30,023 nucleotides of DNA from a virus. Of this stretch, positions 20,776 through 23,661 are shown in pieces (within the stretch, counting starts at the first letter, position 1; each line of letters begins with the position of its first letter). The DNA lies in IMG/VR virus record IMGVR_UViG_3300035228_000827, positions 1 through 30,023 of that record; one strand, given 5' to 3'. The translations under genes and the position numbers were made by a program. Under the pieces are notes generated by a model, which ran no database searches, was not told where the DNA came from, and worked only from the letters and a program-made list of their open reading frames with translations.

Positions 20776-21444
20776 ATGAACAAAATTATTCTCTCCACAT
20801 TGCTAGCATTATCTCTAGGTGGAACAACAGTTGAAGCAAAACCCACAAAAGGGTACAATACCATGGATTCTATGGGTTGTATGTTGTTACGTGAATGTAC
20901 TGATGATGTTTTTGAAGTCACTTCACTCTTAGACATATCATCAAAGTACACAAACACAGAAGAATTTACTTTTGCTTCTGATGAGTTCAATAATATGCTC
21001 AACTCATTGAATGATGTTGGTGTTAAAGTATATCTCGCTGATGAAAAGTATTTTCCTAAAGGGCATCGTGGTGTCTACCATACTGTGGGTAACAACTTCT
21101 TCCTCAATAAGGATCACATGGGTAGTCCTGGAGTCCTGATGATGGTAATGCGTCATGAAGGATGGCACGCTGCACAGGATTGTATGGCAGGAACTATTGA
21201 TAACAGTCTGATTGCTATTATTGAACCAGAGGATGAAGTTCCTATGATCTGGCGTGTAATGGCAGAACGAACTTATCCAGCAAATGCTGTACCATGGGAA
21301 GCAGAAGCACAGTGGGCAGGTAGAACTGAACATATGACAATGAATGCTCTTGCAGCATGTGCTGGTGGTAATATGTGGGAAGTTTATGAACCTACTGCTC
21401 TTACTAGAAAGTATCTGGTAGACTTTGGATTTATTAAAGAGTAA
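20776..21444 (+). CDS. Secreted zinc-metallopeptidase candidate (HEGWH)
   Basis: 222 residues. MNKIILSTLLALSLGGTTVEA is a good signal peptide with cleavage likely after VEA (about residue 21), so the product is exported to the periplasm or thylakoid lumen. MVMRHEGWHAAQDCMAG holds HExxH (H127, E128, H131). PWEAEAQWAG offers E175 or E177 as third zinc ligand, giving a gluzincin-like set. C35, C41, C136 and C195 could form disulfides after export. I recall cyanophage proteins of this kind but no tested function. Possible roles are attack on envelope proteins, help with lysis, or blocking of superinfection. The stop overlaps the next start (TAATG). Confidence 0.65.
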   Translation: MNKIILSTLLALSLGGTTVEAKPTKGYNTMDSMGCMLLRECTDDVFEVTSLLDISSKYTNTEEFTFASDEFNNMLNSLNDVGVKVYLADEKYFPKGHRGVYHTVGNNFFLNKDHMGSPGVLMMVMRHEGWHAAQDCMAGTIDNSLIAIIEPEDEVPMIWRVMAERTYPANAVPWEAEAQWAGRTEHMTMNALAACAGGNMWEVYEPTALTRKYLVDFGFIKE

Positions 21445-22088: not shown

Positions 22089-22096
22089 AATAAATA
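22089..22096 (+). promoter_or_regulatory. Probable T4-type late promoter (AATAAATA)
   Basis: AATAAATA, 22 bases before the ATG at 22119. It differs from TATAAATA in its first base and lacks the ACTAAAAA extension. The genes it precedes look like head-packaged proteins, which fits late expression. Confidence 0.6.
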
Positions 22097-22118: not shown

Positions 22119-22310
22119 ATGGCGTACCATATCACCAGACCTGAAGCAATCAATTCCTCAAAAACAGTCTATTATACTGGAGGAAATGTATGGAGTGATG
22201 ATGCATCACTGAAAAAATCTTATTCCAGTAAAGCAAAAGCAGATGCTGTTATTGTTAATCCAGATGGAAAAAATGGTGGATTCAAAAATGCTACTGTAGT
22301 TTCAGGATGA
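22119..22310 (+). CDS. Small conserved protein, first gene of the internal-protein operon
   Basis: 63 residues. MAYHITRPEAINSSKTVYYT, then GGNVWSDD and YSSKAKADAVIVNPDGKNGG. Basic with a likely beta hairpin; a similar small protein occurs in other cyanophages to my recollection, function unknown. Its stop overlaps the start of the first basic internal protein (ATGA), and it follows a late promoter, so a virion or head-assembly link is plausible but not shown. Confidence 0.6.
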   Translation: MAYHITRPEAINSSKTVYYTGGNVWSDDASLKKSYSSKAKADAVIVNPDGKNGGFKNATVVSG

Positions 22311-22948
22311 AAACATTCAATCAATTTATTGCAGAAGCAATATATGATCCTGAGATTCAAGGAAGATCTCAGATCAAACAAACTGGCGCTGATGGCAGAA
22401 AAGAACCTAAAAGAGACACTGATAGCAGACGAAGACCTGGTGTAAAACCTAGAGTGAAAGCAACTGGTGGTGGTCAATCTTCCTCTGTTGGTGAATATAA
22501 GACTAGAAAAGATGTTGGTGCTACCAAGGCACGTTCCGAAAGAGAACAACAACCAACACAAGAAAGAGGTAGTGTTGAAGGTAAACAAGCCTATGCTGAT
22601 AAAGTGAAGGCAGAGAGGAAGAAAGCAGCACAGGCAAGAATAGCAGCAAGAAACTCTGGTGGTGAAGTAAAGAAGACTACTACGTCTTCAAAGGATGCTA
22701 GTAAAGAAGCATCTAGACTCCTGAAAAAGAAAGAGACTAAAAAGGTTAATCCTGATTATAAACCAAGGGAAGCATCAGGATATACTAGACCTGAGAGAAT
22801 GAAGATTACTAGAGCAGGTGAACGTGAACTGAAAGGTATCATGAAAGACCAAGAAACTGAGAAATATAAGAAAACAACAGGTCAAAATCCTGATAAGAAA
22901 GGTAAGTCTAAAATTTTGGGTAGAGTACATAAGAGGATGTCAACATGA
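22307..22948 (+). CDS. Basic internal head protein with capsid-targeting sequence (1)
   Basis: 213 residues, about a quarter Lys or Arg, without predicted hydrophobic core. The N-terminus MKTFNQFIAEA is almost the same as MKTYQEFIAEA, the capsid-targeting sequence of T4 internal proteins such as IPI and IPIII. In T4 that peptide directs proteins into the prohead and gp21 protease cuts after the glutamate of an I-x-E or L-x-E motif; here FIAE followed by Ala fits. The rest is rich in Lys, Arg, Gly, Gln and Ser (RKKAAQARIAARN, RLLKKKETKKVNP) and could lie along packaged DNA and be injected with it. The overlap with both neighbours (ATGA) shows a late operon. Internal-protein role is inferred from the signal. 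Confidence 0.65.
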   Translation: MKTFNQFIAEAIYDPEIQGRSQIKQTGADGRKEPKRDTDSRRRPGVKPRVKATGGGQSSSVGEYKTRKDVGATKARSEREQQPTQERGSVEGKQAYADKVKAERKKAAQARIAARNSGGEVKKTTTSSKDASKEASRLLKKKETKKVNPDYKPREASGYTRPERMKITRAGERELKGIMKDQETEKYKKTTGQNPDKKGKSKILGRVHKRMST

Positions 22949-23661
22949 AATCCTTCAGTAACTTTATTCAAGAAGCAAGAACTGCTGATGAAATATCAGC
23001 AGATGCTAGACAGGCAAATATAGAAAGACAGACAGATGCTAAAAAGAGATTGCGTGCTAAAAGAGATGCAATTAAAGTAAATACTGCCTCTAGATTAGGT
23101 GTTGGTGCATCCCATAATGAAGAAACTGTTTTAGAATATGCTGGTCAAACAATTAATAACACCACACAGGGTGGTAGTTCTGGAACCAGAGATGATATGG
23201 AGACAAAGAAACCACAACCATCATTACTTGCTAAGATTAGGGGTAAACAGAATGCTAAGAAAGCATCCAATAGTGTTGCCAAACAAGCAGGACAATCTGT
23301 AAAGAATGCTACTGATAATACAGCAGGCACAGGTTCACAAAGAAAACCACAAACTTATAGACAAGCAAATAAAACTGCCTCTGCTAAACCTGAAAAAGGT
23401 GGAGCAATCACCAAAACTGGTGATAACAAATCATCAACAATTGCTGCCAAGAAACCTATTGCTCAACCTGTTCAGAAAGCAAAGGTAAGAGTGCATTCAG
23501 GCAAACCTCAGTTAGGTTCAGCACAGAGACCTGATCTTGCTGGTGTTAAACCAAGACCACAGATTGCTGCTGCTCCACAACAGAAACAGATTTCTGGCAG
23601 TAGTGCTAAGAAACTACCTGCAAATCCTCAGAGGAAAGCATTACCTCAGGCAAGGAGTTAA
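22945..23661 (+). CDS. Basic internal head protein with capsid-targeting sequence (2)
   Basis: 238 residues. MKSFSNFIQEA repeats the targeting pattern of the preceding protein, with FIQE then Ala as probable cleavage site. After a helical, charged part (ADARQANIERQTDAKKRLRA) the sequence is of low complexity, rich in Lys, Gln, Ala, Pro and Thr, for example KKPIAQPVQKAKVRV and PQIAAAPQQKQISGSSAKKL, and is probably disordered. Apart from the first 11 residues it does not match its neighbour, so the targeting peptide is the shared part, as among the T4 internal proteins. It ends the late operon; the first early element begins directly after its stop. Confidence 0.6.
   Translation: MKSFSNFIQEARTADEISADARQANIERQTDAKKRLRAKRDAIKVNTASRLGVGASHNEETVLEYAGQTINNTTQGGSSGTRDDMETKKPQPSLLAKIRGKQNAKKASNSVAKQAGQSVKNATDNTAGTGSQRKPQTYRQANKTASAKPEKGGAITKTGDNKSSTIAAKKPIAQPVQKAKVRVHSGKPQLGSAQRPDLAGVKPRPQIAAAPQQKQISGSSAKKLPANPQRKALPQARS

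Follow-up and report, generated by a model that had tools for sequence, protein, structure and literature searches.

Two basic proteins of a T4-like cyanophage with putative capsid-targeting peptides and a similar tag on many unrelated phage proteins

The closest described counterparts of the locus considered here are the internal proteins of the bacteriophage T4 head. According to the T4 record, IPII and IPIII both start with MKTYQEFIAE/A (here and below, a slash marks the known or presumed cut). IPI is an inhibitor of Type IV restriction, and T4 also packages an ADP-ribosyltransferase (Alt). Suppressor and mutational analysis of the T4 capsid-targeting sequence (CTS) has ascribed targeting to residues 4 and 7 and processing to residues 8 and 10 (PMC9026906). 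Our literature search found capsid-targeting work on T4, SPN3US, and P1 and none on cyanophages, many subscription papers lying outside the search. Reports of enzymes in cyanophage virions date back to 2010, and their accessible parts do not explain how the enzymes enter (PMC3037559, PMC9602691, PMC10665884).

The DNA analyzed here (the window, 30,023 nucleotides) comprises positions 1 to 30,023 of the IMG/VR virus record IMGVR_UViG_3300035228_000827, and its coordinates refer to the whole window. This 30-kb fragment contains tail-fibre-like genes and small hypothetical genes, and its matches among phage records are Synechococcus and Prochlorococcus phages. Two of its proteins, P0001 and P0002, are encoded in an operon of three genes coupled by ATGA overlaps (Table 1), the first of which also precedes the P0001 homologue in the loci L064-L066. 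The late-type promoter that the first-pass annotation had placed before the pair is borne out by several features: ATAAATA is confined to the + strand of the window, where it occurs nine times; a start codon follows 24-36 bases downstream of seven of these copies (that at 22090 among them); and of 29 homologous loci, 15 retain the motif at a distance of 217-220 bases ahead of the P0001 homologue. Elsewhere in the window, positions 20776-21444 encode a protein of 222 aa whose N-terminus is of the secretion type and which contains an HEGWH motif (PHROG 591, function unknown); it is possibly a secreted metalloprotease.

Table 1. Positions of the operon elements and of the predicted targeting peptides in the window.
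Feature	Position	Strand	Remarks
Late-type promoter motif AATAAATA	22089..22096	+	ATAAATA at 22090, 29 bases before ORF 22119-22310
First operon gene, untagged, 63 aa, PHROG 24339 (function unknown)	22119..22310	+	ATGA overlap with next gene
P0001, 213 aa, basic tagged protein	22307..22948	+	
P0001 putative capsid-targeting peptide MKTFNQFIAE	22307..22336	+	predicted cut after codon 10 (22336/22337), before Ala11
P0002, 238 aa, basic, mostly disordered tagged protein	22945..23661	+	ATGA overlap with P0001
P0002 putative capsid-targeting peptide MKSFSNFIQE	22945..22974	+	predicted cut after codon 10 (22974/22975), before Ala11

P0001 starts with MKTFNQFIAE/A and P0002 with MKSFSNFIQE/A, and I8-x-E10 of both falls on the same residues as in T4 IPII and IPIII. 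The two ORFs and peptides are exactly as first described, the T4 record confirms the IPII/IPIII start and the I-x-E position, and the description of the remainders as differing, basic, and partly disordered holds as well. Beyond the tag, similarity between P0001 and P0002 is not significant (E = 0.23); the pI is 10.3 and 10.7 and the net charge +29 and +28, respectively, and both proteins are largely disordered in AlphaFold models. The mean pLDDT is 53 for P0002 and 67 for P0001, where a low-confidence body is accompanied by a confident C-terminal helical hairpin at approximately residues 161-212. The pI values and the promoter motif together point to a pair of basic proteins with predicted late expression. 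Searches of Pfam and PHROGs with both bodies returned no family, and a search of solved structures with P0001 gave no match; in a fold search with the P0001 model, the one real match was a nameless viral protein, 50% identical, and the remainder was noise. No sequence relation of either body to the bodies of T4 IPI-III was detected, and the idea that the two are IPI homologues was rejected on sequence. A recent duplication was also rejected, because only the tag is similar between the two proteins and relatives carry other tagged bodies in the second position.

A tblastn search of 50,697 phage records found matches to P0001 in cyanophage and marine records only (10 records, including S-SM2, P-TIM68, SynMITS9220M01, and RN05-S) and none to P0002; in addition, 32 IMG/VR loci carry relatives of P0001 and seven carry relatives of P0002. 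An alignment of 20 P0001 relatives shows F or L at residue 4, an invariant F at residue 7, one of I, L, M, and V at residue 8, and, in 19 of the 20, E at residue 10; residues 5, 6, and 9 are variable. In eight P0002 homologues, K2, F4, F7, I8, E10, and A11 are invariant. The residues under constraint in P0001 relatives coincide with those of the T4 analysis, so that the peptide behaves as a capsid-targeting sequence would, and both window proteins appear to possess an N-terminal peptide of about 10 residues with targeting residues 4 and 7.

The 41 P0001 relatives have 27 distinct leaders of 10-101 residues, all with an FxxF/LxxF core at or near the start, and with the sole exception of L059 (LCE/ATGDT), a Glu followed by Ala or Val stands at most four residues from the conserved Tyr-Asp of the body. 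About six leaders depart from the strict (L/I)xE rule (REFLE/A, NME/A, VEE/V, TNE/V, and similar), so processing may differ in those relatives. The gene following P0001 in relatives can carry a different body and still start with a tag or a tag-like sequence (MKTFQDFLLEG, MKTFQDFLSEG, MKSFQEFITEG); a constant address on changing cargo is the pattern predicted by a targeting peptide. In the locus L048 (2-1054), P0001 is fused to a P0002-like body in one ORF, and the junction contains Ser-Glu-Ala (RMSEAVDD), as if a cleavage site had been kept between two parts of a precursor.

Homologues of the head protease gp21 are clear in cyanophages; in the phage of the window, the gp21 gene falls outside the 30-kb fragment. 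The gp23 sites that align with the T4 site, which is cut at SFLTE65/A, are GLLTE/AP in S-CREM2, SFLAE/AP in S-SCSM1, and GMIAE/QP in S-SM2. At its end, the tag has the (L/I)xE motif also found at the cyanophage gp23 site, and a protease of the specificity suited to the end of the putative CTS is predicted to be available.

Together with the presence of other tagged proteins in purified virions (see below), these sequence comparisons make it very likely that the tags of P0001 and P0002 are T4-type capsid-targeting peptides and that the proteins are cut and packaged in the head. The fuller reading, that of tagged internal head proteins in a T4-like cyanophage which are cut by gp21, reside in the head, and leave with the DNA into the host, is considered probable. 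Cleavage, location in the head lumen, and injection are envisaged as follows. P0001 and P0002 would be made late, alongside structural proteins, from one coupled operon, and the 10-residue N-terminus M-K-[TS]-F-x-x-F-I-x-E would dock into the prohead core via F4 and F7. Once the shell has assembled, gp21 would cut after Glu10, at the (L/I)xE motif used on the major capsid protein. Basic and flexible, the bodies would then stay next to the packaged DNA inside the head and follow it via the tail into the host, where they might conceivably act against its defence. Many unrelated proteins of marine T4-like phages, enzymes included, would use the tag as a modular address.

A serious rival holds that the two proteins, although packaged in the head, serve only structurally, by shaping or filling the prohead or binding DNA, and play no part in the host. 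T4 offers precedents in gp67/gp68 and, in part, IPIII. A DNA-filling role would suit strongly basic, low-complexity proteins that lack an enzymatic domain and stand behind a late promoter. However, the two are non-core and patchily distributed, as the counts of phage records given above indicate, and their divergence and leader swapping are unlike gp21-gp23. We hold a purely structural role to be possible but less likely than not, while the reading as injected internal proteins remains the preferred one.

A prediction of the first-pass annotation, that a set of head-packaged proteins exists, can be confronted with virion proteomes. For S-CREM2, 52 virion proteins with coordinates are listed in the accessible part of the report (PMC10665884). 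When 727 mechanical ORFs of this phage were scanned for the motif.[KR].[FYL]..F[ILMV].E at the ORF start, it was found in four, and all four are virion proteins of that list: a SAM hydrolase (MKDFDSFLEE), an APH-like kinase ((V)KRFDAFLTE), a nucleotidyltransferase (MKNFSSFLTE/A), and a 78-aa protein detected by a single peptide (MKDLHSFLTE). This corresponds to p = 0.003 against 219 annotated CDS and 4e-4 among the non-structural ones, or to 0.012 and 0.003 if the 78-aa protein is left out; since the motif, which follows T4 residues 2, 4, 7, 8, and 10, was fixed only once the N-termini of the listed virion proteins had been inspected, these probabilities are a guide and not a blind test. The Cas9 of S-CREM2 virions bears LRFASFMAE/A after a 15-residue extension.

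Nucleotidyltransferases give the same picture in other phages. The accessible parts of the respective reports describe T4-GC190 in S-SM1 virions (PMC3037559) and the NMNAT of S-SCSM1 as a virion protein (PMC9602691), and the homologue in S-SZBM1 was also detected in virions (PMC9146016); these proteins start with MKKFSAFLNE/A, MKSFLQFLKE/A, and MRFRQFIIE/A, the last tag being one residue shorter. S-CREM1 has three tagged ORFs. Most of the tagged proteins of S-CREM2, S-SM1, S-SCSM1, and S-SZBM1 are present in purified virions, but two tagged proteins of about 105 aa, SSCSM1_30 and SSZBM1_191, are not reported in the virion proteomes of S-SCSM1 and S-SZBM1. They may have been overlooked because of their small size, or the tag may be insufficient; as mass spectrometry favours large, abundant proteins, this absence is weak evidence. 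The family to which they belong (with W02:167904 and G001:101529) is encoded near terminase genes in at least S-SCSM1 and S-SZBM1.

The search for further tagged genes, proposed at the outset, did bring a large set to light: two scans gave at least 152 tagged ORFs, which fall into at least 45 clusters once the tag is removed. Pfam domains recognized on the tagged cargoes are cytidylyltransferase-like, DUF6267, DUF5661, DUF6321, GNAT acetyltransferase, RlpA-like transglycosylase, glucosaminidase, adenylate kinase, AAA_33 kinase, and S-adenosylmethionine lyase, the last (S-AdoMet_lyase) on a protein of the locus L258. SAM-degrading enzymes counter restriction in other phages, as cited in the accessible part of PMC10665884, so a virion-borne tagged enzyme of this kind is the best counter-defence candidate here. 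Chemistry directed against host defence is plausible for the tagged SAM hydrolase of S-CREM2 virions and the L258 protein, but nothing ties P0001 or P0002 to the inhibition of defence.

Several other proteins deserve mention. Small proteins with an HGT...IKK.GF signature (L101, L084, L145, and a seven-member cluster) have no match in Pfam; a resemblance to an ADP-ribosyltransferase-type fold is only a lead. T4 gp61.1 (gene 61.1; NC_000866 18966-19130; L228:1467-1631, - strand) begins with MKTFKEFIKE, followed by a segment like the N-arm of mature T4 gp23 (VAGDSGGNPENISIGTTSGAVVNKGP versus IGGDHGYNATNIAAGQTSGAVTQIGP; score 69 versus a shuffle mean of 28, z 9.7), and may be an unrecognized tagged head protein that mimics the capsid arm. 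Independently of this case, the tagged SSM2_108 (S-SM2, GU071095 91376-91804; L068:13377-13805), which reads MKTLKQFLKE/TPTNSVGNGGYTSAGGQTVAGYD, repeats after the tag the start of its own phage's mature gp23 (z 16.5). S-CREM2 ORF160 (OR473000 128342-129235; L194:28342-29235), listed as a virion protein by mass spectrometry in the accessible part of the report, has no tag, and close to its N-terminus it almost duplicates the capsid N-arm of its own phage (GATGFTGAAAPEGPVAGYDPLM versus GADGFTGAAAPGGPNAGFDPVM, z 13.3).

The tag might, on the other hand, send proteins to the tail, baseplate, or neck of the virion rather than to the head interior. The RlpA-like and glucosaminidase domains would suit a tail site, being those of cell-wall enzymes, and whole-virion mass spectrometry gives no location, as it does not separate the head lumen from the tail or from co-purifying protein. 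Internal head proteins can bear wall-degrading domains too, however, T7 gp16 being an example. Moreover, the tag is nearly identical to the T4 peptide proved to target the head core (PMC9026906), it ends in the head protease motif, and it is carried by none of the annotated S-CREM2 tail or baseplate proteins, all of which makes a destination outside the head unlikely.

That the tag exceeds chance follows from three controls. Encoded as a degenerate DNA pattern, M[KR]x[FY]xxF(L/I/V/M/F)xE matched 22 sites, two of which belong to the window, in a total of 16 records; the reversed pattern matched none. The three T4 matches are ipII, ipIII, and the uncharacterized 61.1; the podovirus P-SSP7 has no match to the pattern, and S-PM2 and HTVC008M have no strict match, although a nucleotidyltransferase-like sequence is present. 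In IMG/VR, the pattern was found in at least 120 stretches versus seven for a codon-permuted control, and a T4-like core gene was recognizable in 96 of the 130 tag-bearing loci listed versus one of seven control loci. In five cyanophage genomes, the protein motif stands at 13 ORF starts versus one match in 235,874 internal positions. The motif is short and AT-rich codons favour K and F near starts, yet in view of these controls, the conservation of Glu10, and the enrichment of tagged ORFs among virion proteins, a chance origin was rejected, and a coincidental or translation-start effect without a targeting role is extremely improbable.

The mechanism proposed for P0001 and P0002 is that of T4, of which they would be new members. 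We lean towards a wider view, in which a single modular code for head export, F4-x-x-F7 plus an (L/I)xE cut, is shared by marine T4-like phages and carried by dozens of unrelated delivered proteins. With about the same degree of assurance, its cargoes would include NMNAT-like and SAM-degrading enzymes, kinases, ADP-ribosyltransferase-like and GNAT proteins, and disordered basic proteins such as P0001 and P0002. A shared code on dozens of cargo families goes beyond what our literature search found described. If true, it would define a set of delivered proteins that can be read from sequence and would offer an account of how non-structural enzymes enter cyanophage virions. Sequence alone would then suffice to predict injected proteins throughout an abundant group of marine viruses, and the question of what a cyanophage delivers when infection starts would come down to a finite list of candidates.

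Among known systems, the CTS of T4 IPII and IPIII is the nearest: the N-terminal 10 residues (seven of 10 identical in P0001), the I-x-E/A site, the basic character, and the late-type promoter are alike, whereas the mature bodies are unrelated, the host of the phage is a marine cyanobacterium, and leaders reach 101 residues in relatives. T4 IPI resembles P0001 and P0002 in its MKTFKEF start and in a later Glu-Ala site (ITE/A at residue 19); its body has no sequence relation to theirs, and of the three proteins only IPI is known to have anti-restriction activity. The cyanophage T4-GC190 nucleotidyltransferase (NMNAT-like) has the same tag and, according to the accessible literature, is proven in virions; unlike P0001 and P0002, it is a folded enzyme and a core cyanophage gene, and that literature mentions no packaging tag. 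The SAM hydrolase, APH-like kinase, and Cas9 of S-CREM2 differ from the window pair in being enzymes with a less exact tag, displaced in Cas9, but they share with it leaders of the tag type, and the accessible part of their report suggests that they are encapsulated, naming no signal (PMC10665884).
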